Part shown: positions 11,363 to 58,060 of the stretch, piece after piece | Layout: each line of letters opens with the position of its first letter | Numbering within the stretch: position 1 is the stretch's first letter | Origin: Agarophyton chilense | Taxonomy: Eukaryota; Rhodophyta; Florideophyceae; Gracilariales; Gracilariaceae | Direction of reading: 5' to 3' | NCBI GenBank assembly: GCA_030374765.1 | Contig: JARGXX010000016.1 | Coordinates: 868,001 to 932,000, forward strand | Length of the DNA: 64,000 nucleotides | Translations under genes and position numbers: made by a program | Notes under the pieces: model-generated | The model's input: the letters and a program-made list of their open reading frames with translations, nothing else | The model's database searches: none | Told to the model about the DNA's origin: nothing

Positions 11363-12890
11363 CCTTGCTGCTCCAATCTGGACGTCCTGAACATACACAA
11401 GTTTTTTCGATTCATCTACTGCGCTGATAGTAAACGGGCACAGCCACTCGCCGATTCTGCTGTCTACAATTTTTTCCCTCCATACCAGGACTTTATCTCC
11501 AACTTGATGCGCTGTATCAGAGGCTGGGGGCACCTTGTGTTTTAGAGCTCGAGTGATTCTCATTTTCGCCATACAGCTTTCCATCTCGCGGCGAGCCGTG
11601 TTAGCTACATCTGCCCTACTTGCAAGGTTTGCTTTGCTCTTCTGAGGCTCGCTTATGGTTTGGATGGAGGGGAACTCTCTGAAAACCAATGCGGATGGTA
11701 CCAATCCTTCAGGTCCAAGCGTGTCATTCATGGCCTTCACTGATGCAGCGAGTGCAAGTTATGGCTCGGTGGAGGGATTCTGTACCATAATTTTTCGGTA
11801 CGTTTGTCTTAGGGGTTGGTGATAGCGTTCGACAAGTCCTAGACTCGGGTGAGCTTCCACACCAGTTCTGTCGACTTGAATGTTGGATATCGCAGCAATA
11901 TCGATGAAAAGCTGACCAAAAGCGCTACCTTGGTCCACTAACATTCGATTCGAAATTCCTGTATAGATAGCTATCCAGCATGTGAGAATCTTCTTCCATA
12001 TGGTCCTTGTAGATACGCCGGCAGATTCGTGGCAGCGGAAAAGCGGGTACCTTCATCAACAATATGCAGCACAGGCTTTCTGTTTAGGTACATTATGTCT
12101 ATAAGAACTCTTTCGTTGAACTGAACGCTTTCAGCTCCAAACGATACGCGAAATCGCTTCGGTGCATTCTGTATTCTCTGACATGGATCACATCGTTTGC
12201 TGAGGTCCATCAGAACTGCCATTGTTTGCGGTGTAGCTTCTTCGGGCCTTGCTCTTCTCATCAGTGCAAAGAGTTTGTCAGCCGCCGGGTGAAAGAATTG
12301 CCGGTGTATTTTGTTTAACTGCGCCCTGGTGAAGTAGGATTGCGTTGGAAAACTCATATCAGCAAACACGTGCCCACTCTTAGATCGGCGCAGAGGCACA
12401 GACCAATCGTCTACGAAACGTTTCCAGCCCTCATTATCGTCCACATATACCCTGTGTGTGAGCCTATTGGCTTCGGTGTCCGCTATAAGAGACTCGCGGT
12501 CAAGGATATCCATCCCAAGCAGAGCTGGAATGTCCGCTTGTACGACGTTTATAGTAACCATGATGGGACAACCGTTGGGGGTTGTAGCGAGGTGAATGTC
12601 TGCTTGTCCAAGCGACTCAAACGATACGTCAGCAAACTTGTAGCGCGTGTGACACGGTACCTGGCGAAGTTTTTGCAGTCGTAGCTTGTGCTGCGATAGA
12701 ACACGCTTTAGTTCCCTAACTCCAATGACTGATTTCGGTGCTCCTATGTCGACATAGAATCCGTCTGCTCGAGAGCGATTACGCTCCTTCGCAAACTTTG
12801 TCACGAAGATGTGACTGACATTGACTTCCACGGGCACACGCATGGATTTGCACCTTGGTTGAGCAGTCCTATGCGAAGCTGCCCATCGGC
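11363..12890 (-). pseudogene. Element C: protease-integrase fragment, third Copia-order family
   Basis: Minus-strand fragments in three frames (about 12850-11971, 11944-11759, 11740-11363). First comes an aspartic protease (FYVDIGAPKSVIG, later ALLGMDIL). Then a zinc region (H-x-FFH ... CDPCQRI) and integrase with acids in LIDIMYL and LVDQGSAF and glutamate in LVERYH. Last is a C-terminal integrase part with GPEGLVPSALVF. Protease followed directly by integrase is the Copia gene order. The style resembles Copia-like polyproteins of fungi more than families A/B. The frame breaks at about 11970 and 11750, and the right LTR of element B cuts it at 11362, so no RT remains. Confidence 0.75.
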
Positions 12891-13863
12891 AAGGGCGACG
12901 GTGTTGAGGCACTAACTCTCGTCGCCCTATTGAAAAGACTGTGATGCTGGATGCATCCCTTTTTAGCACACAGTTGTAGGACAACGCTTGGAGCGGAGAC
13001 ACCACGAAGATGTTCGGGATCTTCCTCTCTTGAGAGACACGTCTCAAGGGGAGGAGACGCGTCCCGGCGGAGTACAGGAACAGAGCCACTCTGGAAAGGC
13101 ACGACGGAGTCGGGTGTAAGACCGAGGCCAATCCGGCGGGATATACCTAGAGTGTTTAGGTGAGCACGGCACAGTCCTGGGTGTAACCAATCCTAGGCGG
13201 AGCGGTACCACGGCGATTGTCGGAAAAGGAGCCAGGAAGCACTCGTATGAGGTGGACGAGCGGGGTGAGTGGGGCGGCCACTCACGAGAGCCAAAAAGTG
13301 TAACAAGAGGAAACGGAGGCGAAACCCTATGCAGAGGCGAGACTACGACAAGTGTCGGCGATTAAATATGAACCCACGGTGGTGGTAGCACTCTGGTCGA
13401 CAGAGGGGTGGATGAACTAACGTGCGACGGGCGCTCACGCAGTATGCGGTGAAGACGCGCCGAAGGCCAAGAGTTCAGGGCCAAGACTCCCTGCTTGGGA
13501 TCCCCCAAGAGGGTGTTTACTGGAGAGCAGTGCTCAACCTCCTAAGTAGTGTGGCGCGCGGCCCCTGACAGTGGGCGCGCGCCTGAAAATTAGACACTAA
13601 ATAGCGATAGCGTAGTTAAATAAATACTGAAAATTACTAAATAATACTAACCATTAGGTAGAATCCGGGCCACGTGTGGCACGCCTCGCACTCGAGCGTC
13701 GGCATCCGTGCAGTCCACGTGGTTCACCAGTGTGCACTTCCGGTCCTAACCGGCCGTCGGCATGCAATAGCGGTAAAGCTTGTCATAGACCAAGCTAGTC
13801 CTCGAGCGAGCGAAATCTCTAAGTCCTGGGAAGAAACCCCCTCGAACGGCATTGCCCTTCAAC
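12891..13863. other. Unexplained insert inside element C
   Basis: About 1 kb separating the gag and protease parts of element C. No protein family is recognised. It holds a perfect GC-rich hairpin (13553-13560 with 13576-13583) and a smaller one (13029-13035 with 13042-13048). No flanking duplication or terminal inverted repeat was found by eye. It may be a solo LTR or a small non-autonomous transposon; the edges are approximate. Confidence 0.4.
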
Positions 13864-14832
13864 AATAGCCGCCACATGGTTTGTGAACCAATCTTCATCG
13901 GTCTTTTCGACGTCTCTGCTGGCCAAGGGCTCATCTCCATTTGTTAGTTGGTCAAATAGGCGGACTTCCTCAACATCGTAACATGGTTCGTGCTGTTCAT
14001 CGTCGCCATCATTCCTGTCGGCGATCTCTTCAGTCTCTTCCTCCATTTCCAAGACAAGGTCCGACACAATGTGTACGGCGGACTCACCACTAGTCATCTT
14101 TTGACGCACAAAGTTGCCGATAGCACCAGGCTTACAACGGTGGGCTGGTTGCCATGGTCTCTGGCATTTATGGCATTCATTGCGTCGACGACTTTCTTCA
14201 AAGATTCGAGGGTGAATACGAGGAGGTGCGCCACCATTGGCATTCTTCTGGTTGATACGGAGGTCCCTTTGAGGCGGATGTTTGCGGACAAATTTTGGGT
14301 TCCGTCCGTACTGCTGATACGACATCTTTTCACTAACAATATGCGTCCCAGGGGTCTTATTGATTTCCCTGATTTCTTCTTCAAGTTGGACGCTTTCTCC
14401 CAGAGCAATAATGAAGCCATTGAACGTATATTTTAGAGTAACAATGTTGCTTACTGGTAGCCTTGCCCATGAGGATCCAACAACTGCATTTCGAAGGTAT
14501 CCAATTTTATTGGCCTCGGAGCGGAAGTGAGGAGGACATTGCGGTGCCAGGTCTTCTATGGTACTAACCACCTTAGTTAGTCCGTCGGAGGCAGTACTGA
14601 GTTTATTATCGACCATAACCTTCTCGATTCGAAGAGTGTTGAGGATACCGTAAACTTGGAGCTGGCCAGAGTTACTATTGTACTCCTCAACCATAAGATT
14701 AGCCATATCTTCGAAGGTCATATCATCTCTTGCGTTATTGAAGAAGAATGTACGTGCTGGCCTATCGAGTATATTGACGAAGTAGTCGCTCTTGTAGAGC
14801 AACGCCCAGTTAGGGGATACTTGAAGATGCAA
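13864..14832 (-). pseudogene. Element C gag, C-terminal half with zinc knuckle
   Basis: A frame of about 320 codons. It contains gag-like helical sequence, then a cysteine-histidine knuckle of the form C-x2-C-x7-H-x-C in CHKCQRPWQPAHRC, then an acidic tail (VLEMEEETEEIADRN). This knuckle style occurs in gag of fungal-type LTR elements. It is separated from the N-terminal half at 15720-16402 and the protease at about 12850 by two inserts. Confidence 0.6.
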
Positions 14833-15719
14833 CTCATAGAATGAGGATTGAACCCTCCGAGGGTTATGATTATGATCCCCTCTAAGGTGTGCTGAGGTGG
14901 CACTGTTTTCTGGTTAGAGTTCGCCTATAAGGGAAAATTCGGATGGCCCATGGTTGGATTGGCCCCGTGGTACACGTGGCTTAATTTTGGCACCGATTTT
15001 CGGATATTTGTTAGAACGTTGGACTTTTGGGCCCTGACAGTTGGATCTCCACGTGTATGGCCCTGAGCAGGTGTGCACTACTGTAGAGTTTAGTTAGTGG
15101 GCCCTACTTAGGGAGATGAGATCTGACAGTCCGAAGCTCAGAGTAAATGGCAACCAAGGTTGGTCTTCGATACCTTTAGAGGTTCTTCGTCGCCATCGTC
15201 TCGGCCTTACAACCCGGAACGGGCTCTGGTTAGCAACGCCTGCGTAGGGACACGACTCCACTTGGAGAGTGCCCACGTTTAGGTTCCGTACAACCACCCC
15301 CTTGGGACCGCTCAGACGACCTGCGTGCACGATACCCCGTGGGGGTTCTGCTTACTTGTTGCGTGCTTTTTGTGTTTCCTTTCGAGGACAGGTTTTCGCG
15401 CCTGTATTGGTTTTTTTTGTTGTTTCGCCCCTTTTCTGGTTCTCGGGTCCGGTGCCTGTTAGTGCCCGACCCTCGCTTCGTTTTTCCTCTTCGCCGGATT
15501 TTCCCCCATTCTTTGGGATACCCATACCCATTCCCGATCCAACGGTTTCTACCCCTCACCTCCGTCGGTACTGCCGGAATCCCCCGTGGGAGTTACACCC
15601 CACAGTACGGGTGGAACGGAGGGCTCTGTCTCTGAGTCTGCCTCCCCCAGGGAGCAAGGCTTCGAACACCTTGAGAGCACTTCCCGTCGCCGGGTTTTGC
15701 TCCACAGCTCTTCTGAGAT
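14833..15719. other. Second unexplained insert inside element C
   Basis: About 0.9 kb without a recognisable protein, splitting gag of element C. Near its left edge is a perfect hairpin (14851-14856 with 14860-14865). Part of it (15340-15560) is T-rich on the plus strand. No matching terminal repeats were found by eye. Confidence 0.35.
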
Positions 15720-16402
15720 GGTGTCAGTCGATGTTGACGAGCGCATACATTATAGTCGCGTAACGTCAGCTCGATCGACTGAGTTAACTCTCCTTTGAAT
15801 CTATTGTCTTTGGAATGCTGGAAAACATAAATTGCCTTTCGTGTATCTTCTGAAACTCCAGAATTCCCAGGTAAGTGGTTCTCCTTCGCGCGATACGATG
15901 GGCGTGAACCACGCTCGTTATTTCCACTTAGTGACTCATTATTTCTGACAGGTCGGGTTCGGCCTTCTCTGCTAGAAATAACTACAGCCTCCTGCACGTG
16001 GTCGACCGATGTTTGGTCCCTTTCTTCGCTCATCTGTCGAGTAGTTCTAGCGCGAGGATGAACCAGGTTCGACAGCGCAGTAGGGTTGGCAAGGCGAGAA
16101 GCAGATCTACTCCGGCGGTAAAGGGCGACTCCTTGTTCCATGGTTTCAGCAGATGCTGCAAGAAAATGCATAAACCAGACATGAGTCATCAACGAGCGGT
16201 TAGTGGTCTCATATGATTCCAAGTGAAGGGTCGTAGTAAGTCCTTCTGGTATGTTATTCAGATCGTATATCTCTAAAACGTCTCTGAGAAGCTGAACTGG
16301 AAACAGTGCCATGTTAAAGAATTTAATATCCAAGATTGTATCAAGAGAAGGCATAAAGCTCTTCAGCGTTAACTCCAAATCTCCTTTACGTGTTGGCGTC
16401 AA
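15720..16402 (-). pseudogene. Element C gag, N-terminal half
   Basis: Minus-strand frame beginning MTPTRKGDLELTLKSF, with helical gag-like sequence and an arginine-rich middle, ending in IELTLRDYNVCARQHR near 15720. The link to the frame at 14832 rests on strand, order and gag-like character; homology to a named gag family was not recognised. Frame remnants may continue upstream to about 16560. Confidence 0.45.
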
Positions 16403-17809
16403 AAAAAGTGCAGAACCATCCTATTCAACATCAAAAAAAGTTGCAATGTGTAAAGCGCACATTCACGTAAGGCTTCGCCTGTTTCGGTAGTTGGCTCAAC
16501 AACAGTAGTAGAAAGTCGAAGGCGCTCATAGCGCGATATAGTACTCGATCGAGTAGAAGCCATCGGTTAAAGTATCACAACAAACAGCGCTCAAGAATCC
16601 GGATTACCGTTTGGACGCGTCTGTTGCAAGGATTTCGCTTCGCACATAACACAGTTTACGTGGTTTGGTGAAGGTAATTTGAAAAGGGATGGGCAAGGAG
16701 AGACAAACGCGTCTCTTCGCGTTCGTTAGTAAAGAAGTCGAAAGACCGTTCTTTACTATTATTCCTCCTGCCCCCCGCCTCATCCTCGTCGCGCAAGGCG
16801 AGAGCTGCGATACACTATACGCGACGTTGCGAGCGCGCTGTGCCACAAATTGGCACAACGCACAGTGTGACTAAAAAAAAAATAAATTAAGCCATGCGCA
16901 ACGCGCATCTTCAAAACGAGATCACGACGCTCTCACTTTGTAGACCCCGCCTAGCCATCTACAGTTATTATAGCGTACCATGAATAAAAGAAGGTTTTTT
17001 GTTCTATTCTAATTTCGCACTCTACAGTAGCCTTTGCCTGTTATCTTGAAAGAACAGGAGCGTTTTTAAAAGATGGACCCAGTTTTGATACTTGTTTTAT
17101 TTGGTTTCTAGGCAGGCTACCTTTCAATTAAAACACTCAACAAGAAGTCAAATAACATAAAGAATGTGGGGGTGTTCTATTCTAATTTCGGTCACTGTAA
17201 TGGTTGGTTGATGTCTCTTACGGATGGTTGTAAGGTTTTGAAAGTAGTTTCATGTCACGCATGCTCACTACCGTCACGGGGGTTATTCTATACATGAAAT
17301 TTCTCAGACTTCTGCAGAAAGAAATACTGTGCTCAGGAGCTCAAAATCGGGGGTCATCCTTCGGGTAATGCATCACGTAGGCCATAAATATTTCAGGGCT
17401 ATTCTACGGGCCGAAATTTGTTGGAGAGGTCGTTCGCTTGTCAGGGAAATAAAAGTACGTTGTGACATAGGAAATTTACAAGAGTTAGTTCGGAATCCTG
17501 TACATCTACAATCGCGCTTTACAACGGTTTCCGCACTTCAATATAGTTCGGGCTTGAGCAATATGCCCATAGCGGAAGACGTCATCGAGACCGCTGGAAA
17601 CGTCCATTTCACGATTCATCTTATTCTAGAACAGAAACGATTCGTTGCCCTTGAGCACAATCTTCACTCATCTTCCGCTCTTCCCACCCCCCTCTCCGTG
17701 ACCGGTTTGCTCAAAAAGTTCAGTTCAACCTTTCATGACTATGGTCCTTTCAGAAACGACAGGAACATGAGATGAACGGACTATGCGTCCAGAACAGTGA
17801 CAGGGCATG
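16403..17809. other. Intergenic region with four related short repeats
   Basis: No gene recognised. A 17-bp sequence (gttctattctaatttcg) occurs exactly at 17001-17017 and 17174-17190. Looser relatives of the form ATTCTA then about 6-8 bases then AAATTT occur at about 17284 and 17402, each preceded by G-rich sequence. A 148-codon frame at 17329-17775 shows no family features and probably overlaps the 3' end of the heat shock factor transcript. Confidence 0.5.
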
Positions 17810-30490: not shown

Positions 30491-30508
30491 TATATATATA
30501 TATATATA
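30491..30508. repeat. (TA)n microsatellite
   Basis: Nine uninterrupted TA units. Confidence 0.9.
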
Positions 30509-33953: not shown

Positions 33954-33978
33954 GAGAGAGAGAGAGAGAGAGAGAGAG
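33954..33978. repeat. (GA)n microsatellite
   Basis: About twelve GA units on the plus strand, about 500 bp upstream of the zinc-finger start codon. Confidence 0.9.
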
Positions 33979-34474
33979 CGTTGGCACAGCTGTGCACTGG
34001 CTGGCGATGGGCGGCTGGAGCGCCGTTGCGGAGAAATATCAACTGCGAGCTCAGAGGTGTCAAGCGCGCAGCAAATATGCAACGACAGCGTTGATATCTA
34101 CGTTGGGATATTCGGCATTGGTTGGCTGGCCCGCGCCGATTGCCCGTAACCTTTCCGTAGCCTCTAAGTAGCCTCTCCGTAACCTCACAGCCTGCCGCCG
34201 CGTGCAACGCGCGCGTGCAGCGCAGCCGTTCCATCGCGTCACCCCTGTCACGTTTTGTATCTCCGAGAGCGTCCCGGTGCCCGATATTCACCGACCGTCG
34301 TCCTCCTTTAAAGCAGCCGCCGCCGCCATTGTCCCACCCACCGTCCCACGTTCCCACTCGCCAACCACACACCGTGTCTCCCGCCTTCCCGTACCCTCTC
34401 TCTCCCCCCTTCTCCGCGTTCCGGCCGTCTCGCAGCGCCTGTCCGTCGCCCGCCGTCCGCTTGCCGCCCTCGCC

Positions 34475-35011: not shown

Positions 35012-37574
35012 TATGGTTTCGATCAAAACAGCTACACGCCCCCCGCCCCCCCACCCACCCACTAATCCAGCCGACACCTCGTCCGTGTGAAACAAAAGTC
35101 CTGTGCCCCCCCTCTTGAGATAGATAGTACTCAAGGTCAACGTCACCTACTCGTCTCCCTACCACTTGGAATCGCTGCTAACAGTCGAGAAGAGTCTCCC
35201 CATCCCTTTTTTATTCTAGACTTTGCGCATGTGCCCCTGTGCCTTCGTTTGCAACACCCCTTCCACATCGTTCTTGCTAAAGTGCTAACATTCTCACCCT
35301 TCGATAACATAAAACCCTACCCACCTCGTGCTGTTTCTCATCCTCACCCCCCAGAACATTCACACGTCACCAAATTGTATTCGATGAGAATATTCGCATT
35401 GAAATGTACTGCCCTCCACATGCATCAGTCACAGTCACACACGCTTACCCTCCTTTGCATGTCTGACAACTAATACGCGCCGCGACGCGTCTCCCGATCC
35501 CACCAAACACAAATGTCAGCAAAACCCTACTAGCACCCTAAAAAAAAGGTTGATTGTTGCTCCACCCCATCAACCAACGATCTAAAAAATCATAGAATCT
35601 GTGTTTGCTCTAGCGTTGTGAAGGATCGTTCCATCGTAACCCGTCGAATCCGCCATAAAAAGAAGCCCTCATGCGGCTCCACACGTGTCTGCGCCCAAAG
35701 TGCTAGCACACGAGACTCACACCTCCCCTCCCCCGTGCGAAGAGTCCTGTGTGTCACTTGAATTCTAACAGGACTCGCCCCCTTTCCGTCCAGCCCGTGC
35801 ATTTTGTGAGTGCTGACCACTGCTCTTTACCATTTACACACACGATCAATCACTACAGTGGGTGCATGCGGAAATCGCCAGATCGCCTGCTGGCCAAATT
35901 AGACCCAGTAAAATAACGCCAAGTCGCCTCAAATTTTGGTGGCGCCACGCCAAATTTGACGTTCAGAATGGACCCCCCGAGGGTCCATTCGGCGCGCCAA
36001 CCCGTCCGCCAGATATTTCTTCACTGGGCGCTCCTGAAATTCAGCGATTCAGACCATTTGAGTGTACTCGATTTGCGCGAAGTGGATATGCCTCGGTCCC
36101 GCCAGAGCATTTGATCCGGGACGCCAACGTCGCAATTGGCGCCAACGCAGCGAGCAAAACCTATTTGAGCGATAAGAACGCCACATCTTCTACCTAAAGT
36201 TGCTTGACTTCTCTATTGCCGACCACCCAAAATCAAACAGTAGGCCACATTTACTGTCGCTTGAACCACATATCAAGAAGACGTATTCTGAAAAGACAAC
36301 GAATAAAACTCAACTAAACATCTGATGTACCCAAACCAAACCCCTATTTCTCTACTCGCTACAATTTTTTCAGCAGAAAAGAGAAAACCTTCCTCTTCTA
36401 GCTCATATAAATTTTTCTACGGCTATGTGGCAAAAAATATGACACACTGCTCAAGGAACACGAAACACTTTTGGGGAAAGAAATGCGCACTCTCGACAGT
36501 CTAAGAAGAAACTTCGCTACATTTTACCGCCACAGTATTTTTACCGACAACTCGCTCATTCTAGATGACGTAAAGAATTCAAACCCAAATTTTGAACCAT
36601 TAACTGAACGCGCGGATATAGATGAAGAAATTAACGTTCCAAAAATTTTGGTTTCCGTATTTCAAAGTGTCAGTGACTCCTTCGTTGGTAATAAAAAACA
36701 TATCTACTTCGTTATTGACGCAAAAAGAGAGAAAGAGAAAGCTGTACAAACCTTCCTTTAACCTCGACCGCTAATGCACCCTCGCTTGCGATCATCTGCC
36801 TCTACGGCTAAGAATGATCTCATGAAAATCGTTAACTTTTCTATGTTCAATGAAGAGCAGTGTAGGGAAAAAGATATATAAAGACGCAATGAAGAATGAA
36901 AAGGGAATTTTTTACACCTTTTTGAAGATAACAAACTGCGCGAGAAATTGATGGAAATAATGTTGATGTTGAGTGCAAGTTATTGTTGATTGCAAATTAT
37001 TCGTGAAAATCCAGTTAGAGATTGAACGTGTCCTGTAGGAAGTAGTTTTTGCAGCTCCAAGGTGTGTAATATACGTAGATAGTAATTGGTTTGCATCAAT
37101 TCTTCGATTTCGCGAGATAAAAAGGTCCACAGTGCACAAGAACATAATGCATTTATCATCGTTCTCTTCGTAAGTAAATCTATCATTTTTTATTCATAAC
37201 ATCTCTTGAAAAGCCATTATTCTCCATTTCGATGCTTGCCGCACCTAAGTGGCTTGCCTAATTCGAATGAGATATTCAGCGTCTTTTTTCGTTCGTTTCA
37301 TATTGCGCCGACTTTATTAGAAATGGATACATTCCACGACAGATGTCGTAAAATCACCTCTGGCTTATGCCACTGTCTTGTCTCGGGAGCGTAGTGACGC
37401 TCAACCTTAGAAGGTAGACGTAATAAACTTCGATGGTAACAGGGCACCGTGAAAACCCGCAGCGGCAAACGGCGGGGCAAATAGCCTATACCGTGTAGAT
37501 GAACGATGGTAGGCGTCGACGCGCGGGAAAGCCTGTGTGGTAGTTGAGAAACAATGAACCAAAAGGTATAGTCG
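35012..37574. other. Intergenic region, GC-rich then AT-rich
   Basis: The first part is probably the 3' UTR of the zinc-finger gene. 35900-36190 contains several GGCGCC and GCCAA/TTGGC motifs and a 9-bp hairpin (35967-35975 with 35981-35989). From 36200 the sequence turns AT-rich. No family is recognised in the small frames present. Confidence 0.4.
36483..36761 (+). CDS. Hypothetical 92-codon frame
   Basis: First ATG at 36483 (MRTLDSLRRNFATF...). AT-rich, no recognised domain. Its amino-acid composition is plausible for a protein, but there is no support beyond being open. Confidence 0.15.
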   Translation: MRTLDSLRRNFATFYRHSIFTDNSLILDDVKNSNPNFEPLTERADIDEEINVPKILVSVFQSVSDSFVGNKKHIYFVIDAKREKEKAVQTFL

Positions 37575-37952
37575 TGACCCAAGTGGTGCCTGTCTTTATC
37601 AGATTAGGATGGGGGAGGTGCAGTTCCCTATATGCAGTGGACTGCCCTCTCCAGATCACCCGGGAGGTGCCAGCAAGGCACGGTCTCTGACCTAGTTTCA
37701 GAGACCTGGCCAGCACTGGCTACAGTGCCAGGTGGCCACTCCACTACTGTACTAAAATAAATATAATTACAATTACAATTACTAACAATCACTCAACCAG
37801 AAGGTACATGTCAACACTACATGTGGCTGACAACACCTAGATGGTAGCTCACCCGGAGCTGCATGGCCGATGATCCCTCGCATCCATCACCTACAAGGTC
37901 AGTATAGTATATCGACAACCTCAAAGGTCAGCCCTTCTGCCACTATACTACA
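37575..37952 (-). repeat. 3' LTR of the gypsy element
   Basis: 378 bp, TG to CA on the plus strand. It matches 47797-48179 except for scattered substitutions and a 5-bp (actac) duplication in the right copy. Contains six ACC-N4-5-GGT sites (37577, 37658, 37796, 37835, 37889, 37918). The four bases before the left edge (gtcg) are also shared between the two copies, so the edge could lie at 37571. Confidence 0.88.
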
Positions 37953-37964
37953 GACCCCCTTCCT
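37953..37964 (-). promoter_or_regulatory. Polypurine tract of the gypsy element
   Basis: The minus strand reads AGGAAGGGGGTC immediately before the LTR start TGTAGTATAG. This fixes the element orientation as minus and 37575-37952 as the 3' LTR. Confidence 0.8.
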
Positions 37965-38691
37965 ACCATTGAGGCACGCCCCGTGTCTCCTTACATCAAA
38001 CCATAGAGGTGTGGCGAGCGACAGCGGCGCGGGCATCGGATTGGTGTCTGTGAGCGACGCGCGATCCCTTGAGGTTCAGAACTCGGCGCCAGTGCCGGTT
38101 GGGGAGGGCGCGCGACGACGTCGGCGCACGAATTGAGCCACATCCATTCAGGTAGGGACTGTCATGAGGGCGATGCAGTGTAACTGGCGCGCTCGCGGAC
38201 ACCTTTTCGGTAGTGGCCCTGCTTGCTTGCGATTCTGCTTCCGCAATCGCCCACTGTCTAACCAAGTTGGTATCGCACCTTTCCCGGTTACTCAAACTTC
38301 ATTTCCCTCCTAGGTCCTTGCGCAGCGCCGTCCCGCCTGGTCGTTCCCACGGCTCGACAACCCTTCAGGTATTGCGGCCCTTAATTGGCGGCGTCGCGAC
38401 CGTAATCGTGCTCTCCGGATTTCCCTGAAGGTTTCCTAGCTTCTCGACCTTTCAGGTTTCGTCTACCTTGTAAGGATTGACTCGTGGCGCCGGTGGGGCC
38501 TGAGCCTGCTTCGATACAACCATTGAGGTGTTGGCCTGGGTCCGTGGTGGAAGCTTCCGGTTGTGAGACCTTATTGGTGTTGAGCCGCCCCGTCGGTAAT
38601 TGCGCGACCTTTTTCCGGTTTTGCATTCCGGTTTACCCTCAAGGCGATGACAGGATAGCGCCGCCTCCACGCACGCGTTCGAACCCATTCG

Positions 38692-41154
38692 ATGCCACGT
38701 CGATGCACCTTGCGCTGCATCGTTGATTCGTCACCGATACGTAGAAGGGGTGGGTCGTCTTCACAAGGAGCACCAGCGCTCGCGAGACGTGATATGCCGG
38801 TTACCATTGAGGTTGAAGAAGTCGGCGATTCCGAGGGGATTGATACCCCTGCAGTTATGCCTTTAAGGTCGGATTGGTCCCGCTCCACGATACCTCAAAG
38901 GTCTGGAACCGCATGCGACCGTACGCTGGCAACTGTTGCACCTGAAAGGTCGATGTCGGTACTACCTGAACGGTTGGATACGTTGGCCGTCTCCTCAGAA
39001 CGGATCGAAGAGGCACCACTTCAGAAGGATGTATACCCGCTGGTGTTCACCGCGGCTGTGGAGGCCGAGTCATCACCTCGTTCGTCGGGTCGAGCTACGG
39101 ACTTCCCAACCATGTCAGATAGCGGCCCATCGCGTGGCCGTGAACGCGGTGGTATTACCAAGAGGGTGACTCGCTCGACTTCTCGAACGCCTACCAACAT
39201 TGGTTTTCGCAGCGTGCCTGTCCCCGCGACACAGTTCTCCCCTGGGACTCCGTCTGACCCATACGAACGCAGTGGTGGACTTCCTCCGACAACACAAACC
39301 AATTGGGCTCACAATCTCGCGTTTGGTGCGGCGAACCGGGCGACGAGTCAGTATGGACCTTTTGGTATTTCCTTCGACCATATGACGCACAATGACCTGT
39401 TGAAGCACGATTGGCTTGTGGCGGTGGGGAATTCGTCATTGCCGGCAGCTCTCACCAGACCACAATTGGATACCTACTTGGGTTTGTCCCGTTGGGACTG
39501 CGAGCGCCTTCGCTCCGTTCCATTTCTCTTGAAGAAAAGGGACCAAGAGTCTCAACCTCGTCAGGGTCGAATGGAATGTTACCAGAGTCGGCAGCGTCAT
39601 ACACCTTTGAGGTATTTCATCCCGCCTATATATCTGAGCGACTTGCCGTATGTGCGAATCGAACCGGAGCTGGACTATTACCGTCGATTGGTGGTGCAAG
39701 TGTGCTAGTACCCGTCCATTCCGAGAACTTACCTTCCGGTTTCTCCTGACTTGGTTTCCCTGAATCGGCCTTTCACCACTACCAATTGGGCTGACCGTAG
39801 TAGGTGGGGCGACGATGCAGCGACGGAGAGTCGCGTTCGCACTCGCAACTCTTACACTCGCGTTATGCATATGTTTCATAACGTCGAGTACTTCTCACAA
39901 CCTACGAAGGGTAGACGCGATTGGTACGTGATTGGACCAGAGTGGTGGGAGTCCTATGAGGTTCCGTTATCGCTGAGCATGCCCACTCCGCCGGTTTTGG
40001 CGTACTTCGGGAGTCAAATTTCCCGGAACCTAGAGCGGTATTACCTCATTTGGTCGATTGCCCTCTCGGAGTGGACCGTGTTGGTTTCCATCCTAGCTCT
40101 GGAGGCCGCCCGTTACGGTATCGATTGGGATTGTCGCAATCCCGAGTCTGACATATATCGAGATGGTGTTCAACCTGTAGGTCGCATTTTCTTCATACCT
40201 CCGAGGGTTGTACAGGATATTTTCCGATTTGGTTACGAGAACATTGCTGAGGGGACCGATTATACTGTGAAGGATTTGGACTCGTATTTGGAGCAGAGCA
40301 AGAATTCCCATTGGGATTCCCATCAAGGTTGGAAGGCTTTCGATCCCGCAACTTGGGAGATTGTGCCTCGCCACGCCCAATATTATCCCGGCGAGCCTCC
40401 TGTTTATGGAGCTCCCGCGAGCCCCGAACCTTATCACGGTACTGTGGAGACACCGGTTGGTCGTTATGCTGGTCCCTTCCCGTCACAGCCGTTACCTCAA
40501 GGTCGTAAGTCGCCTATCCCTACGGGTGTGACTCCTACTCAACCGTGGTTCTCGCGGGTTGTTGGTCCGGTTCGACCTCTGTTAGCGGGTATTGCTTGTC
40601 CTCCGCCTTAACCTACGATGGATTCTCCGACCGTGGTCGGATTGCTGGTTCGAATTCGCCAGTCTTGCGTCACCAACTTTCAGAGGGCTGGGCCTACCTC
40701 CGTGGTTGCTGCATTAACGCTCCTTGAAGGTTTGCTGCCGCGCCATGCGCAATACATGAAGGCGCTGAACCAACTTGGTGAGTTCCGGAATCAGTTCCAG
40801 TTTGACATGTACCAACTGGCCACCCGTCAGGTTGCCAATCTGGCAAGCGACTCTGCTGCTGCGCCATTTGATCCTTTGATGGATTTCCTTCCAGGTACTA
40901 ACTTGAACCCTGCAGTTTTGCGACCCGCTCCGGCGGTTCCTTTCGTTCATCCTCGTTTGGTTTCGACTCCTCTCCCCAGTGGCGGGGCTACCGCTCCTTC
41001 GCTACCTCTTAGGTCGATTGCTCCTAGCATTTCTGCAAGTTTTCCTCCGTGGGTAGTCAATAACACGGGTCCTCCTGATCCCACTGCTCCTAAACCGACA
41101 GGTCCTTCTACTCCCGGATTCGGGGGGCTAGACTTTCTGTCGCTTCACCTTTGA
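38692..41154 (+). pseudogene. Antisense accessory ORF of the gypsy element, 821 codons
   Basis: A single frame antisense to gag-pol, from the ATG at 38692 to the stop at 41154, broken only by TAG at 39706-39708 and TAA at 40609-40611. All three pieces (338, 286 and 178 residues, plus a 14-codon bridge) are in register. The N-terminal third is Ser/Arg/Pro-rich with basic patches (SRGRERGGITKRVTRSTSRTP). The middle looks globular, with Trp and Tyr (TYLGLSRWDCERLRSVPFLLKKR, WYVIGPEWWESYEVPL, RIFFIPPRVVQDIFRFGYENI). The C-terminus is Pro-rich. I recognise no family. Antisense ORFs between pol and 3' LTR are known in some plant gypsy elements, so a real gene is plausible. The basic region is compatible with nucleic-acid binding, which is inference. 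Confidence 0.6.
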
Positions 41155-41366
41155 GGTTCTTGTGGCGGCCGCCTGCCACTTGACTTCCTTAGTTGTTCCT
41201 CCTTAAAGTAAATTGTTGTCTCTTCTTGTCTCTTCTACTGTTACATTTGGTTGTTCTTTCGTGTCCTCCCTTGTAGGTAATCTCACACGCATATGCGTCC
41301 ACCTTCTGCTGAAAACGACGTCTTTTCTCCCCCTTCCTTAGGCCTGAGTACCACGAAGGTCTAAGG

Positions 41367-41927
41367 TTAGCCTTCTGCAGGCATCGGGTCCTTGCGACGG
41401 CGCCAATACCTGATACGGAAGTGTGGGGATATTGCGGCTGGAGGTTCGAGGGTGTCCCCTTCTGGCCCCCAGCCGTACCACCTTACGGTGTACTTCAGAC
41501 CATTGTAGGTTCGCGTGTGGCCCACCAGACGGTCAACGGGAAATCCCTCTGAGGTTTGGTCCTGATCTTTCGGGGAAACGCTACCTCGAGTTCTCATATG
41601 TTCCGAGTTGGGAGCTTCGTGTGTGGGAGCCGGGTAGGGAGCTTCCGCTGTTACCGTTTGAGGTTCAATTTCTGTCCCTGTTAGAGGGTTGTAATCCGGA
41701 TCATCCCGTTGAATGTCATCGTTCACCTCAATTGGGGTGTGGTCCTCCGAGGGTCGAGTGCGCAGAGCTACCGCTCTGAGCTCTCGGGCTGAGGTGCCTG
41801 CCTCAATGCGATGTTGAACCGTTTCAGATGCTACCGTAATGCGGTCAATTGATATCGTATTCGGTATTCCATCTTGGTCAACCGTAGCGGTGTGGTCTGA
41901 TGCGTTCAATACCTTATAAGGTCCCAC
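41367..41927 (-). pseudogene. Integrase C-terminus with chromodomain-like module
   Basis: The minus-strand frame starts GPYKVLNASDHTATVDQDG, the GPY/F-type module after gypsy integrase. It ends with FPVDRLVGHTRTYNGLKYTVRWYGW, followed by DTLEP and a basic tail. The latter fits a chromodomain (VxxIVGHR, KYxVRWxGW, xDTxEP), which in chromoviruses guides integration to marked chromatin. It is separated by stops or a frameshift from the integrase core ending at 42219. Confidence 0.75.
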
Positions 41928-42218
41928 TGATTTGGGTAGAAGCTTCGAATTGATATCTCTATCAATAGCTTCACCGTTCGCTTCATCACCCGGTCATGGT
42001 CTTTTACCTGAGGGTGGGTTATCTATGTAGACATATTGCCCCGAAGATACAGAGACCACTTTGGTTACCCTACGGTCATAGTCGGCCTTGTACCGCTTCT
42101 GGGCTGCAGTGAGGCGGCTCTCTGGATGTTTGAAAGCCCTCCTCAACCTCACAAGGGTATTTCGCTTGACCTGCGCAGGGGTCAGTGCGCCAGCTGCAGT
42201 GCTGGTGGTATGATCTCC

Positions 42219-43901
42219 CTACACTACAATACCTGGGGAGTGTCGCAAAAGAACCAAATCAAAGGGAGTGGTCTGCTTTGACCGGTGTACCTGAAGATTA
42301 TAGGAGTTGGTGAGCGGTTGCACCAGCTCATCAGACCCAGTTTGGTGCTGTTCCGTATAGGTTCGTAGCCTTGATACCAATGTGTGGTTAAAGCGCTCGA
42401 CCTGTTCATTCGTCTGCGGGTGGTAGGCAGTAGTGAAATAGTGCTTGATACCCAAGAGGTTACAGACTGCTTCGAAGAATTTCGATGCCAGGTTTGAACT
42501 GTTATCGGTAAGTAGGTACAGTGGCGCACCATACGGGTAGACCCAATTGTTGAGGAACGCGATCGCCAGCGTTGTTGACTTCGTATCCTTTAAAGGTATC
42601 GCTCTCGTGAGCTTCGATAACCTGTCGGTGATCACTAGAATGTGCTGATACCCGTTCTTGGTCTTGGGAAGTGGTCCTAGAAAGTCTATCGCAACAAAAT
42701 CCAGCGGACCCGCTGCTGGAAACAGCTTGAGGTACTTTCGATGCTTTCGATTACCGCCGCGGCTACGAAGACAGGATTCGCATTGACATACAAAATTATA
42801 GACATCATAGGCCATATATGAGGCCAATACAACTGTTGCCTCAAATGTGTAATACATCCTGGTGGCACCGGGGTGTCCTGATAGTCGCCGGTAGTGCGCG
42901 AGATACAAGACTCTCGGGCGCAGCGCCTTCGGAACCACCTTTTGAAGGCAACCATCCAAGTTTGACCTTCTCACGATGTACCCATTGTGGTCCACATCGA
43001 ACGGTGATCCTTTGAAACCAATTTGGTCAGCCAGGGTTCTTCGGTACGCATCCTGGGCCTGTTCTCGTAGAAATTCCTCTCGGGTTACGGGCATGTCGTT
43101 CGTTTTCTCTAGGGTCAGTATCTGCGTTGCCATGTCGGTGTTCCGCAAAGCACCTTCTTCAGGTAAGTCCCAACATCCCTCTAGGTGTTCGCCGGTACCA
43201 TTTTGGTTCGATGACACCAAAGGGCAAGAGATATCATCGTCCACCGGTTCTGTCTCTAACCCTGAGGTGTTTAAGCGTGACATAGCGTAAGCTATGTTGT
43301 GCTTAATACCTGGACGGTACTGTACGTCGTATTCAAACTCCGAGAGTCTCAACCTCCAACGGGCAAGTCTACCAGAAGCATCTGCGAGTCCGAGGATCCA
43401 CCTTAACGCGTCGTGGTCCGTGCGCAACGTAAAGCGCTCACCATACAGGTATGGACGGAGCATCAACATGCTCCACGCTACTGTTAGACATTCCTTCTCG
43501 GTTACTGTGTAGTTCTGCTCCACCTCATTCATAGCGCGGCTCCAGTATCCTATAGGTAATTTGTCTCCGTTGTGCTGCTCCTGCATGAGACAACAACCAA
43601 CTTGGGCATGGGATGCATCTGTATCCAGTGTGTATGGTAGACCTGTTTTCGGTAACGTTAAGATTGGCGGCGACAACAGCGCTCGTTTCAATTCCTCAAA
43701 GGTATCCATTTCGTCGTTCGATAGATTCTCAAACCGTTCAGATTCACTTTTGTGCAGCTTCTTGTTGAGGGGAGCCGCTCTTTTCGCGAATTCCTTCACG
43801 AAGCGACGATAGACGTTACACAAACCTAAAAAAGGATCGTACGTCTGTCTGGGATGGTGGCAAATCGACGTCCTGTACGGCTCTAATGTTGCTCGGCGCA
43901 A
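42219..43901 (-). pseudogene. Gypsy RNase H and integrase
   Basis: A 560-codon frame. RT connection (PFLGLCNVYRRFV), then RNase H (YTLDTDASHAQVGCCLMQ; TDHDALRWIL). Next is the integrase HHCC zinc region (H-x3-L-x-GHPG, then CESCLRSRGG). The core has aspartates in AIDFLGPLP and LLTDNSSNLASKFF and glutamate in HPQTNEQVERFN, so the catalytic triad is present. It joins RT (43816-44985) through a frameshift near 43835 at an A/T run. Confidence 0.92.
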
Positions 43902-44985
43902 CCTCTAGGGTACCAGGGCCTATGATGTGGCCCAGGTATTCCACCGTTCTGGTAAAGAAGACGCATTTGCGTAGCTTCAGCGTCACCCCCGCCTCAGCTA
44001 GGAGGGTTAGTACGGTGCGTATGTGAGCAAAATTCTCGTCTACCCATCTGGAATTGATGATTACATCATCGATGTATACCAAGGCGGTTGTCTATTTAAC
44101 CTTCGAAATGATGATGTCCAGCGCCCTTTGGAAGGTGGCTGGAGCATGGCGCAACTAGAATGGCATCCGCGTGAAGCGAAACAAACCTGCATGGCACCTG
44201 AATGTCGTTTTGTCTCGATCTTCCTCACCTACAGGTACCTGCCAATAACCACAATTGGCATCCAATGTGGTAAGTATTTGCGCATCTCCCAAGGAGTCGA
44301 TGCACTCATCCATTCTAGGTATCGGGTACAAATCCCTGACGGTCACGCTATTGAGCCTCCTGTAGTCCACACAGAACCTCGTACTGTTATCCCCTTTCTT
44401 CTGAACCAGCACCACTGGACTAGCCCAATCTGAGTTGGCGGGTTCAATTACACCTTCTTGGAGCATTCGCTCCACTTCTTTTAGTTCTACTTCTCTCGCC
44501 TTCGGACCTTCACGGTATGGTAGCTGATAAATTTGCTTCGAGTCAGGAAGGAGCTCGATGCGATGCTGTGTGGCCTTAATTTGGCCCAGATGGCCTGACC
44601 ATATTGTTTCAAACTCCTCCAAAAGGTCGAGAATACGGCCCCGCAGTCCGCCGTTATCGTCACCGATCTGGACTGTATCGTGCCATTGCCTCTCAGGGTT
44701 AGATTCCTTTTCTTTGTCTACCGATGCCTTATTGGTTAGCTTTGCTTCCAAGTTGGTATTTATCGATACCTTTGTGGTTGTGGACGCATTTGCGCACCCC
44801 CCTTCCTTATCGAAGGCGACCTCGTCGAGATCAGTGTGAGCTACAGTGAAGACCCCTTGTGGTGCCGGTAGCGCGATGCCAACATTGAATTTTTTCGGCA
44901 ACTTCACGTCGTGACTGCTCAAGTTACTGAGACACACCTCAAAGAGTTGATTTGGGATGTTGTCGACAATCCCGTTTGCCATCAA
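43816..44985 (-). pseudogene. Gypsy reverse transcriptase, interrupted
   Basis: First part, 44985-44155: ERMLQEGVIEPANSDWASPV, CVDYRRLNSVTVRD, TTLDANCGYWQVPV, FRFTRMPF. Then TAG at 44155-44157, a short bridge (LRHAPATFQRALDIII), another stop, and the active site VYIDDVII near 44050, followed by YLGHIIGPG. The sequence is typical Ty3/gypsy RT with both active-site aspartates of YIDD present. The stop codons prevent full-length product. Confidence 0.9.
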
Positions 44986-45003
44986 GGTGAGGTGTCGATG
45001 TGC

Positions 45004-45660
45004 TCACCTCGGATGGGTTTGTAGTATGACCAGCCCGGGGGTTGCATACGACACTGGTACCAATATTTGGTGCATTGGCGGGATAACAACCTGTTTGGTA
45101 ATGCGCACTTTGTGGGAGACCGTTTTGGTGGATATCGTATTCTTCGGTTTGACGAACCATCCCCGTTCGGTTTCCGTATTACCTAAAATGGCAACTCGTC
45201 CCCCGTGACGTAGGGCGACGGTATGGGAACCAGGAAGGATTGCTTTGACATTTCTGTCGATGAAGTTCGTACCTAGTAGGCAGTCTGTTGGTAAACGGTC
45301 GACAAAAAAGAGTTGCAGTCTTACCTTGAGGTGTCCGAGCTGCACCAAAGTGGTGAGCATACCTCGAAGGTTTAATGGGCGCTCGTTTGCATCCACCAGC
45401 GGGTTGTTGTCGGGAGGTCGGCTCAAGTTCCGAAGTACCGCCTCTGGTATGACGCGGGAGTTAAGGACGTTTGGGCCGGCCCCCGTATCCAACACGCAGG
45501 TGACTGGAACCGCAAGGCGATCCGAAAAACACATTGAAGCACGTACTTTATAGTTGTTGTAATTCATATGACAAACCGGAACTGGTTGTGACGTGTTCTC
45601 TTCCACCTTCAAGGTTCTGGGTATCGATTGGCCTTCCGCTTGCAGGTTCGGTTCGGCCAT
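45004..45660 (-). pseudogene. Gypsy aspartic protease region
   Basis: Contains VTCVLDTGAGPNVL, the DTGA active site, and later LLGTNFIDRNVKAILPG, the family's second conserved block. It lies between the gag zinc knuckle and RT. It would cut the gag-pol precursor. Confidence 0.85.
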
Positions 45661-47706
45661 TACGCCAACCGCTCGGTGATTTCCTCCTGTACGGGAGGGG
45701 TTGAGTCCGAGTTTGGTGTTTCCTCGATGGTATTGACCTGTACCGGTGTATGGGGTTGGAACCTATTTGGTGCTTGCGTTGAAGACCCACAGAGGCGTTG
45801 GTGATTCTGCATGCGAGCCTGAATAAACTGGTCTCTCATCCCTGAAGGTACGTTAGCGCAATTGTTTGCCAAATGGTCTGTCGCGAGACAGAACCAGCAA
45901 ACGAGGCCTCCAGTTTGGGGGTCTCATGTTACCATTGAGGGGGCTTCGAAACCTAGTTGGTAGGAGCAGTGGCGTAGGATGTGGGTGGAGAGTTATGGGA
46001 GCTCGCTCCCCGCATACTCTGTGAGCTCATCGCACTTGGCGGCGATTGTACCGAGTTTGGTGTACGCTTTGACGACCAATTTCATACCGTCGAAGGTTTC
46101 GAGAAACGCCCCTGGGTCGCTACCAAGTGGATAGCGATCCTTGTGGGTACTTCGATGTGCGAGTAACCCTCTGAGGTTGTGGTGTCTTCATTTCCCGAAA
46201 CCGACCTTTTCGATTTATCCTTCGAAGTTGGGGGCACGGCTGGTCTCTTTCCCAGCCGAAGGGTATCTCCAAGGCCCTGGGAGTATTGAGCCAGCCCATT
46301 GTAGTCTACCTTTCGGTTAGTAGCCAGGTAATTGCGTACCTGGGAACGGATCGCTTTGTCGACATTGTCGGCAAATAGCGACTTGAACCTAGAGGTGGTG
46401 AATACATTACCACAACCGGTTGCCAGATTCCACAGCGCGAGCGAAAACTCCGACTCTATTTGCCCAGACCTTTGAAGATAAGCGAGGACTTCCGAGTAAG
46501 CCTCTTGGACAACCTCATCGGTTTCATATGTTTCCAAAAAGAAATTGACCATTTCTGGGTTTGACTCCAACATCTCTGTATCACCCTCATCCATTGCTAA
46601 GTTATTGCCGCAGAGCCTACCCTGCAGCAAGTAGTATACTTGTCCTTTCAGGTAAAACTGAAATAGCCACATAGCAGCGCCCTCGGAAAACCATTTTGGT
46701 CACATGCAAGCTTGAACATCTGCAAGAACTCACTCACCGCAATAGAATCCGTACCTGTGAAGGTTGCGTCACCCATTTGGAAGCTGTGCTTCTTTTGGTG
46801 CTTAGTAATCTTCTGAGCAACCTCTTGCGTGTATTCAGAAGATTTGTTGATCAACCAATAGGTCCTGTAATCAACTGCTTTGGTGAACATATCGTTCAAC
46901 GGTTGGTGCACCTCCAGGTCCATTTCGGTGTCAGACTCAGAGACGGGCGACTCATTTTATCGCTTTTTACCCTTTCGGTTCTTTTTCGACGATTTCTTCA
47001 TCGATCTGTTTGGTTTCTTCTTCTTCTTACCTTTACGGTCATCATCCGACGATGGCCTCGTATCGCAGCTGGAGTCTGATGAGTCGGGGTCTGAATCATC
47101 CTCTCGATTATTTACCCTCTTCGTCCTCCGCTTCTTCCCTTTTCGGTTTCTTCGTCGCTCATCCAACGAGTCAGACGAGTCGTCCTTGGGACCACCTCCA
47201 TGGGTATCCTTTTGAACGAAACCAGTAATTGGTGGCAGATAAATTTCTTGAGGATGTACTTTCCCCAAGACCTCTTGACTCTGCCTTGGACCTTGTAGGT
47301 ACTCACTATCAGTAGGTAATTGTTTGGAATGGGTGGAACGACCCATTTGGAATCCTTGTGGTATGCGCTTTGCGATGTTCACCTGTGTAGGTCGGGATTC
47401 TGCGAATCCTTCGGAAACCCAAAGGTTCTGCATAGCGCGGTAAACATGCTCCCTTCCATCTGTAAAGAGATACTGTTTCACCATTTCAGGTATCCTGTCC
47501 GATAGCTCTTGAGCTGCTCGGTCAACCACAATACGGGAAAAATCCATCGACGTCCATTGAGGGCGGAACCATCCGGGTACCCGACTTCTCCTTAATCCAT
47601 CCTCGACCCCGAGGGTGACGAGCGCTTTCGCTCGCTCTTCGAGCTGAGGCAATAGCTTCTCCGCTGCAACCTCAATTGGTAATTCCCTATGAGGTTCCGT
47701 TGCCAT
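45661..47706 (-). pseudogene. Gypsy gag with CCHC knuckle, frame-broken
   Basis: Begins at the ATG at 47706 (MATEPHRELPIEVAAEKLLP). An internal Lys/Arg/Asp/Ser-rich linker runs to the TAA at 46957-46959. The frame resumes immediately (MDLEVHQPLNDMFTKAVDYR). After a frameshift near 46650 the capsid-like part follows (FQFYLKGQVYYLLQGRLCG ...). A CCHC zinc knuckle, VCWFCLATDHLANNC, lies at about 45860-45905. Gag would form the particle and bind the RNA. The frame breaks make this copy inactive. Confidence 0.8.
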
Positions 47707-47796
47707 AGGCGGCGGACCATGTACCTTTACGGTTTTGTCCCAAGGGTGACGGTGCAGCTCCTCGCGGTTTTACAGAATCAGTTGAGCCAATGGTCG

Positions 47797-48179
47797 TGAC
47801 CCAAGTGGTGCCTGTATTTATAAGATAAGAATGGGGGAGGTGCAATTCCCTATATGCGGTGGACTGCACTCTCCAGATCATCCGGGAGGTGCCAGCAAGG
47901 CACGGTCTCTGACCTAGTTTCAGAGACCTGGCCAGCACTGGCTACAATGCCAGATGGCCACTCCACTACTGTACTAAAAAAAATATAATTACTATTACAA
48001 TTACTAACAATCACTCAACCAGAAGGTACATGTCAACACTACACTACATGTGGCTGACAACACCTAGATGGTAGCTCACCTGGAGCGGCATGGCCGATGA
48101 TCCCTCGCATCCATCACCTACAAGGTCAGTATAGTATATTGACAACCTCAAAGGTTAGCCCTTCTGCCACTATACTACA
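47797..48179 (-). repeat. 5' LTR of the gypsy element
   Basis: 383 bp, homologous to 37575-37952. One of the six motif sites of the left copy (37658) has decayed here (ATC instead of ACC), while the others are kept. Immediately inside lies the probable primer site region (minus strand CGACCATTGGCTCAAC); the tRNA is not recognised. Confidence 0.88.
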
Positions 48180-57239: not shown

Positions 57240-58060
57240 TTGTGTGTAGTATTCTACTATGTCGGGGAATCCGATAGGTTGGTTTTTGGCGAAGTCGCGG
57301 TTGGAACTCATAAGTGAGTGTTATCATCAGCATTGTCATATGAAGCGGCATCCCGCATAGGATGCCTAGAGGCAGAATGTCTTAGTGGAACACGTGGCGT
57401 CATGAGTCGAGTGGCTTACCACGGCGCGCGCATAGTTGCGACCCTTCCTAGGAGAATGCCATATTGGCAACGGCGCATGTAGTCGCGATTCACGTGGAGG
57501 GCTTTACTACCCTTTGTAGCTAGACTTCCATTAGGGACCATACCCATACAGTGGTTTGGCTAAGTGGCTGACCACTGGGTATTATTTATATATTTATTTG
57601 GGCACTCACCCTGACATTATATAGTGTACCAGAGGTGAGCGCCGACTCCAAGTAAAGGAGACAACATGGGCATCATGACTATTCTGTTCCTCGCTTAGGA
57701 TTCCTTAACCGGAGATCCAGACGAGCTATAATAGATAGTCAGCCCCCAACCACTTCACGAGCCGTCTCGTACCTACGTTCCATAAACGTTTTACAGTTGC
57801 ACTGTTCACCCTCGCTGGCGAGTAGTGGCCTCACACCCCACTTCCAGCTCCCTGGTGTTGTAGCTCTACCACCCCTTTTCCTTCGCCGCAAGCGACCCAT
57901 CGGCGGTCCGAACGCTGTCGCAGGTGTCTGCTCTCTCCGTTAGAGTGGATACTACATTGTGCACCAGCTCTATACCGATCGTCGTTTTCTATAGCGTAGT
58001 AACCTAGCCTTACACGGGAAAGGGAGATCGCTGAATGCACTTTCATTGTTCAAAGAAACG
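57240..58060. other. GC-rich hairpin-bearing island, possible solo LTR or MITE
   Basis: Composition changes from AT-rich to about 50 percent GC. Contains perfect inverted repeats: GGCATCC (57347-57353) with GGATGCC (57360-57366), and CAGTGGT (57549-57555) with ACCACTG (57571-57577). No protein recognised and no second copy in the window. The left end reads TGTAGTATTCTAC, resembling an LTR start, but no matching end was found. Confidence 0.35.

Follow-up and report, generated by a model that had tools for sequence, protein, structure and literature searches.

Arrays of short inverted motifs and mini-hairpins, and a possible mini-hairpin code, in LTR retrotransposons of the red alga Agarophyton chilense

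Our analysis of a 64,000-nucleotide (nt) stretch of the 79.8-Mb genome of the red alga Agarophyton chilense (contig JARGXX010000016.1, positions 868,001-932,000; the window) reveals a Ty3/gypsy long terminal repeat (LTR) retrotransposon, at window positions 37575-48179, that is tiled over its whole length with the inverted motif ACC-N4-7-GGT, and reveals related gypsy families, lacking that motif, that are tiled with perfect mini-hairpins of nearly free sequence. We refer to the family of the window element as F1, to a diverged family with the same motif as F2 (loci L002 and L077), and to the free-sequence families as L078, L079, and L080. We judge it evenly balanced whether several LTR-retrotransposon families of this alga carry selected arrays of mini-hairpins, each with a family-specific format and with a nucleoprotein of the element as putative binder.

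In the window element, ACC-N(k)-GGT occurs 24, 58, 25, and 18 times at k = 4, 5, 6, and 7, as compared to 0-5 times at k = 0-3, 1-8 times at k = 8-18, and a mean of 3.2-3.3 with a maximum of at most 10 per spacing in 500 dinucleotide shuffles of the element. The first-pass annotation of this DNA had reported about 100 sites at N4-N6; the excess is real and stronger than reported, the earlier counts (53, 21, and 25 at N5, N4, and N6) being slightly low, and the N4-N6 range stands but had overlooked the N7 class. All 18 example coordinates given there recur in our site list, as do the six sites of the left LTR (shuffle mean 0.6, maximum 4), and the sharp peak at k = 5 above a shuffle level of ~3.3 per spacing is the one it had anticipated. 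When all pairs of 3-mers were scanned at spacings 0-12, the top pair in the element was ACC-5-GGT (58, versus 7.0 expected from the numbers of ACC and GGT in the element), and another pair led in the rest of the window (46 versus 15.8). The remaining 53 kb of the window contain 8, 8, 11, and 12 sites at k = 4-7 and 4-15 at every spacing from 0 to 30. A Copia pol region at 5455-8193, previously said to be free of sites, contains no N4-N6 site and a single N7 site, and the thinning described in the core of reverse transcriptase and RNase H (43450-43940) is real, with two sites there. A second, lower increase of ACC...GGT is seen in the element at spacing 24, with 18 occurrences. A strand asymmetry of TCC-N5-GGT in F1 (23, versus 6 for ACC-N5-GGA) was considered and set aside, being absent in F2 and partly background (6.1 versus 3.1).

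Shuffling of synonymous codons (200 shuffles per open reading frame, ORF) yields fewer sites than observed in five of six F1 pieces and in both F2 ORFs. In particular, an open antisense ORF has 32 sites as compared to a shuffle mean of 8.1 and maximum of 14, and an F2 gag has 42 sites as compared to a mean of 11.8 and maximum of 21; the reverse transcriptase piece is the exception, with 4 sites as compared to a mean of 1.2 and maximum of 5. The synonymous and dinucleotide shuffles together rule out codon usage or base composition as the cause, in agreement, apart from the reverse transcriptase piece, with the earlier claim of independence from codon usage. Tandem repetition is likewise ruled out as origin, since the sole direct repeats of 25 base pairs (bp) or longer in the element are its LTRs.

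The window element has the two LTRs and the order protease, reverse transcriptase, RNase H, integrase of a Ty3/gypsy LTR retrotransposon (with the protease just under the Pfam cut-off), and comprises the following parts:

37575..37952, minus strand: LTR, 3′ in the gag-pol sense, with six ACC-N4-7-GGT sites; direct repeat with the 5′ LTR
38692..41154, plus strand: antisense-strand ORF region, in three pieces in the window copy (38692-39708, 39751-40611, and 40618-41154), without Pfam match
41367..41927, minus strand: pol end with a weak chromodomain-like stretch (Pfam search)
42219..43901, minus strand: gypsy pol, RNase H and integrase (Pfam search)
44155..44985, minus strand: reverse transcriptase piece (Pfam search)
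45004..45660, minus strand: aspartic protease piece, weak, just under the cut-off (Pfam search)
46082..46672, minus strand: gag piece, part of which aligns with F2 gag at 70% DNA identity (ORF and alignment)
46957..47706, minus strand: gag piece by position, N-terminal part with a basic stretch; no Pfam family above cut-off
47797..48179, minus strand: LTR, 5′ in the gag-pol sense; direct repeat (47790-48179) with 37575..37952
37577..48155, no strand: 125 ACC-N4-7-GGT sites over LTRs, coding, and non-coding parts (120 without the second LTR)

The Chromo match at the pol end, a feature that would mark a chromovirus-like gypsy element if it follows the integrase, is weak (E 7e-4; 20 bits, below the cut-off of 25.1). 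A search of 37000-49000 returned no Rfam match at gathering score. Longer inverted repeats also occur in the F1 LTR, for example, by eye, a 9-bp stem with a 7-nt loop at 37682-37706.

The motif belongs to the family rather than to the window copy alone. A search with the antisense-ORF region yielded 136 scored candidates from 137 matches (a lower bound), of which 30 loci were taken; the k = 5 peak is present in 30/30 of these and in 8/8 loci around LTRs, two of the 38 (L009 and L017) being the window copy itself. Thirty other gypsy loci, representing at most a dozen families since 19 are near-identical by score and counts, show no k = 5 peak. Equal density in unrelated loci, which the first-pass annotation had named as evidence against its claim, is thus found neither in those loci nor in the other 53 kb of the window, and the family restriction it proposed appears right, with the motif common to F1 copies and to the relative F2. 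Genome-wide, three close ACC-N5-GGT motifs occur 68 times, versus 21 times for the reversed pattern, and many of the places listed share one gag-like stretch.

F2 has 68-69% nucleotide identity to F1 in pol and gag. Its gag locus contains 23 N4 and 23 N5 sites in 3 kb, and in L077 the sites become dense near position 4000, just past the pol end, with none in 1001-4000. Of the 29 F1 sites that fall in alignable parts of pol and gag, 16 have a counterpart at the matching position in F2 (7/18 in pol, 9/11 in gag), often with differing loops; the remaining sites were gained or lost between the families. From F1 to F2, arm bases are retained at 131/171 (76.6%), loop bases at 92/147 (62.6%), and other bases at 1789/2636 (67.9%), and the difference between arms and loops has p = 0.007, and p = 0.001 in the reverse direction. 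Sites in F2 gag are spaced more evenly than random (coefficient of variation, CV, 0.57 versus 0.64-0.99); for all F1 sites the value is borderline (0.74 versus 0.75-1.02).

The bases that flank the motif follow a rule of their own. Specifically, the pair immediately flanking ACC...GGT is a Watson-Crick pair in 9/120 sites of F1 and 14/115 sites of F2 (23/235 together), as compared to 105/465 (F1) and 107/396 (F2) for the same words at spacings 12-80, and to a free expectation of ~25%. One position further out, complementarity is close to normal (30/120 in F1 and 22/115 in F2). Ranked by frequency, all four Watson-Crick combinations of the flank fall within the five rarest of the 16, with counts of 9, 8, 0, and 6 in 235 sites. 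The easiest reading of this avoidance is a stem obliged to stop at three pairs.

In the families without the ACC motif, stems have little fixed sequence and the geometry of a hairpin. In L078, a family with 69 or more copies of the antisense ORF, perfect 4-bp dyads with loops of 3-5 nt number 342, as compared to 117 expected from wider spacings (z 20), and the integrases of L079 and L080, which show the same excess, are 80% and 79% identical to that of L078. Exact 4-bp stems in L078 number 98, 70, and 38 at loops 3, 4, and 5, as compared to 28, 27, and 20 in shuffled sequence, and 5-bp stems at loop 3 number 32, as compared to 6; stems of 6 bp or more at loop 3 show no excess. The arms are nearly free in sequence, the commonest rule being C first and G last; at the third pair of loop-3 stems all four Watson-Crick pairs are enriched about 4-5-fold, and wobble is not (GT 20 versus 16.5, AC 20 versus 19.3). 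Inside three nested pairs, one more pair occurs in L078 at frequencies of 0.49, 0.42, and 0.42 where the remaining loop is 3, 4, or 5 nt and of 0.29, 0.24, and 0.17 where it is 2, 1, or 0 nt; the corresponding values for L079 and L080 combined are 0.44, 0.43, and 0.49 (loops 3-5) and 0.22, 0.21, and 0.22 (loops 2-0). The effect is not seen in host genes. A minimum loop of 3 nt reflects the steric constraint on a hairpin; for a duplex palindrome it is meaningless.

Comparison of L078, L079, and L080, which are 71.6-73.5% identical to one another over 2.4 kb of pol DNA, reveals compensatory changes. Stems remain fully paired across the three family pairs in 79/254 cases, versus 152/1527 control stems, and remain paired even though both sides of a pair changed in 26/254, versus 35/1527 controls; the 26 include nested windows of one hairpin and correspond, by reading, to 19 distinct cases, so that their significance is overstated. 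Examples are TCCG...CGGA versus TCGG...CCGA and, at one place, CGGG...CCCG, CGGC...GCCG, and CGAC...GTCG. Double changes at a single pair are Watson-Crick in 75/145, versus 300/762 controls (both directions counted), and one-sided changes to G·T (128 of 1738) and to A·C (133 of 1738) are alike.

Local RNA folding (three to four pieces of 250 nt per family, 15 shuffles) exceeds that of shuffled sequence on both strands in L078, L079, L080, and a solo-LTR family (z -4.4 to -8.0), with values of -0.9 to 1.0 in host sequence, Copia, and another gypsy element. Two further hairpin-rich stretches lie in the window:

57245..57956, no strand: solo LTR of another element, ~710 bp, rich in 4-bp mini-hairpins
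11900..16500, no strand: retroelement-like relict, with 98 4-bp dyads versus 50.6 (z 7.0)

The solo LTR has a 5-bp target duplication (TTGTG), and its family is also inserted, hairpin-dense, in F1 copies or their flanks (L040, L029, L019, L037, and L010). The relict has protease- and integrase-like ORFs by eye, without Pfam match. An older relict at 53348-53516 (171 bp) matches at 73% identity a part of L078 that lies past the antisense ORF and is probably the LTR; the relict is too decayed for covariation analysis. Among 13 flanking or inserted stretches of the fetched loci, five have z of 5.2-8.5 (three of the solo-LTR family, one of L078) and the other eight have z of -0.5 to 1.5. A milder, broader excess of dyads occurs in some gypsy loci (L047, z 3.6; L066, 4.2; L067, 2.1; L068, 3.4) and is absent from L069-L073 (z -0.8 to 1.8). 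Loci L047-L064, on small contigs (C40-C59), are gypsy copies that hardly differ from one another and have an open frame 961-1166 amino acids long, some recurring every 6.5 kb on one contig (C44, C49). Stretches of the window with host genes or Copia show no excess (z -0.5 to 1.4), which rules out a genome-wide property; a less refined sliding test counted 40 versus 23.1 in 29001-31000, an excess not repeated over 29300-34000 (z 1.0). The HSF gene of the window has 65% identity to that of Gracilaria domingensis.

The antisense-strand ORF accompanies F1 and L078. Five of the 30 F1 loci have an open frame of 839-876 amino acids without stops, and L078 has the ORF at L078:6666-8603; it was not seen in the stretch fetched of the F2 copy. 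The F1 and L078 proteins are related (E 4e-12; 26% identity over 179 amino acids), and that of L078 shares 44% identity with Gracilariopsis chorda BWQ96_03215 at 95% coverage. For these reasons the antisense protein looks, from sequence comparison, like the product of a real gene. With the F1 ORF as query, the sole protein found was from Agarophyton chilense (75%). Searches of Pfam and PDB gave nothing significant for the antisense protein, and its AlphaFold model is uninformative (pLDDT 35).

We propose that the arrays are element-long series of mini-hairpins of 10-13 nt, in coding and non-coding parts alike, which in F1 and F2 would have an ACC/GGT stem of 3 bp whose arms are 4-7 nt apart and in L078, L079, and L080 a 4-5-bp stem of nearly free sequence, mostly closed at its base by C-G, and a 3-5-nt loop. 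Selection would maintain them through binding of the hairpins over the full length of the nucleic acid, on both strands, as genomic RNA and as complementary DNA (cDNA). The putative binder would be a protein encoded by the element, most likely Gag/nucleocapsid acting in packaging and reverse transcription; Gag is the first candidate because an F2 gag contains, by eye, a CCHC-like stretch (CWFCLSPHHLATMC), and the antisense-strand protein is the second. A G·U pair in RNA is an A·C mismatch in the opposite strand, and it is the near-absence of wobble that suggests a role for both RNA and cDNA. That F1/F2 and L078-L080 represent one phenomenon is an interpretation, drawn from the relatedness of the elements, a width that they share (10-13 nt, with an optimum near 11), and tiling from end to end (mean gaps between sites 36-87 bp); F1 and F2 by themselves could be arrays of DNA sites. 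In its fullest form, in which hundreds of wobble-free hairpins of 10-13 nt over gag, pol, antisense gene, and LTRs form a code read on both strands by a putative nucleoprotein, with a fixed 3-bp ACC/GGT stem in one clade and covarying 4-5-bp stems in another, the proposal is tentative, a shade short of an even chance.

Several results weigh against selected hairpins. First, the single-arm retention signal in F1/F2 is modest, because whole ACC/GGT triplets are kept in 35/57 cases within sites as compared to 40/90 outside (p = 0.06), and in the reverse direction in 40/76 as compared to 35/82 (p = 0.26). Second, the arms of F1 and F2 show no covariation, with pairs changed on both sides still paired in 3/87 and 2/114. 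Third, among F1 copies (24 of the 30 loci, at 91.9% identity, six having been left out for insertions or unrelated ends) arms are kept at 0.880 and unpaired ACC/GGT at 0.871, an absence of selection signal that is as expected for dead copies decaying after insertion. Fourth, F1 hairpins are marginally stable (mean -0.7 kcal/mol at 37 °C and -2.35 at 15 °C), and local folding of F1 and F2 is barely beyond shuffles (z -0.3/-2.0 and -0.9/-2.3). Fifth, the F1 N5 sites alone are not evenly spaced (CV 0.79; random 0.74-1.13), nor are the L078 stems (CV 0.65; random 0.63-0.79), and L078 loop positions have no clear consensus; a recognition motif in the loop is therefore lacking in L078, and F1 shares stem bases instead. 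Sixth, mismatched stems are enriched 1.22-fold for GT, 1.15-fold for AC, and 1.08-fold for other mismatches, versus 3.16-fold for GC and 2.73-fold for AT; because wobble pairs are hardly accepted, selection for folding of the sense RNA alone is unlikely, and the use of wobble to assign a strand failed, neither strand having clear wobble tolerance. The signature of structure on the genomic-RNA strand, tolerance of G·U with a sense bias, is accordingly not found: GT is about equal to AC, and both strands fold.

The first-pass annotation had read the motif as sites of a dimeric protein. Its symmetry fits that reading, and the corresponding alternative is that a dimeric protein, perhaps the antisense-strand protein, might bind ACC-N4-7-GGT in the double-stranded DNA of integrated F1 and F2 copies and oppose silencing, by analogy with VANC, an element-encoded protein whose binding leads to loss of DNA methylation. 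This would account for the fixed arms, the symmetry of the sites, their high density in a single family, and the conserved extra ORF. VANC21 binds a short motif that is dense in its own transposable element, and VANC motifs, in the part of that work used here, sit mainly in non-coding tandem repeats, unlike F1 sites (PMC5735166). The avoidance of a flanking pair has no obvious meaning in double-stranded DNA, four spacings are in use, the fetched stretch of F2 lacks the antisense ORF, and L078, with a related antisense protein, has nearly free-sequence hairpins with a steric loop minimum. Flank-pair avoidance in F1/F2 and, in related families, free-sequence stems with loops of 3 nt or longer and compensatory changes thus point to folded single strands, and we regard double-stranded sites as unlikely, although a serious alternative.

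Templated mutation, in which the nascent strand folds back during reverse transcription, copies its own bases, and returns, so that functionless perfect mini-palindromes are made and mended, is in our judgment unlikely to a similar degree. It predicts stems that are free in sequence and contain Watson-Crick pairs only, loops no shorter than 3 nt, compensatory changes, equality of the two strands, and confinement to retroelements, and quasipalindrome template-switch mutations of this type are described for E. coli in the part of the source considered (PMC7202029). Its marks, perfect inverted repeats of free sequence together with compensatory changes, are present in L078-L080 and absent in F1/F2, where fixed ACC/GGT arms and fourth-pair avoidance are left unexplained, as are the absence in L078 of surplus loop-3 stems longer than 5 bp and the even spacing in F2 gag; fold-back on 3-4 bp also seems energetically poor. 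A guard against sense-antisense pairing, in which local hairpins on two transcribed strands would slow formation of long double-stranded RNA and so lessen RNA interference, is very unlikely: wobble-free stems that fold equally on both strands, whole-length tiling, and the antisense ORF of F1 and L078 fit it, but gag and pol outside the antisense ORF are also tiled, and F1 hairpins are weak.

If the arrays are kept by selection, they would constitute a dense structural code laid over protein-coding sequence, a new layer of information in mobile elements, and would offer a natural system for the choice by Gag of its own RNA, or for the separation of element cDNA and RNA from host nucleic acid. 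If they arise by templated mutation, they would be a strong mutational signature of reverse transcriptases that is, as far as we know, unrecognised. The conserved antisense-strand protein family, with no known domain and present also in Gracilariopsis chorda, accompanies the F1 and L078 arrays as a candidate partner. No cis-acting system of this kind is known to us from a mobile element, and among the matches listed in our literature searches none announces such arrays.

Comparison with known systems reveals partial likenesses. Plant Tat-lineage elements are Ty3/gypsy elements with gag-pol on one strand and an extra antisense ORF near the 3′ LTR; F1 resembles them in having gag-pol on one strand and an opposite-strand ORF near the 3′ LTR, a likeness by layout alone, the algal antisense protein having no Pfam match. 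Quasipalindromes have, as a rule, longer arms; template-switch mutation at them, as far as the source cited above describes it, resembles the arrays in perfecting inverted repeats and so giving compensatory changes, and does not account for the fixed ACC/GGT arm and the avoided fourth pair of F1/F2. VANC motifs of Arabidopsis VANDAL elements, as the consulted part of the report describes them, are mainly non-coding, have one orientation, and arise by tandem repetition (PMC5735166); F1 sites are like them in forming a dense short motif confined to one transposable-element family with an extra gene, and unlike them in being symmetric, dispersed, and present in all ORF pieces tested. The dispersed packaging signals that RNA viruses carry are, in the available part of the source, many short stem-loops distributed genome-wide with affinities varying around a shared feature (PMC6281560). 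Of the known systems they are the closest in mode of action, yet they have a recognition motif in common and are a feature of the RNA strand. The algal arrays differ in having stems of 3-5 bp that are nearly wobble-free and equal on both strands, in having LTR retrotransposons as hosts, in having no clear loop consensus in L078, and in that binding by a coat protein or Gag is here putative; they resemble packaging signals in comprising many dispersed stem-loops, in the red-algal elements also within coding regions.

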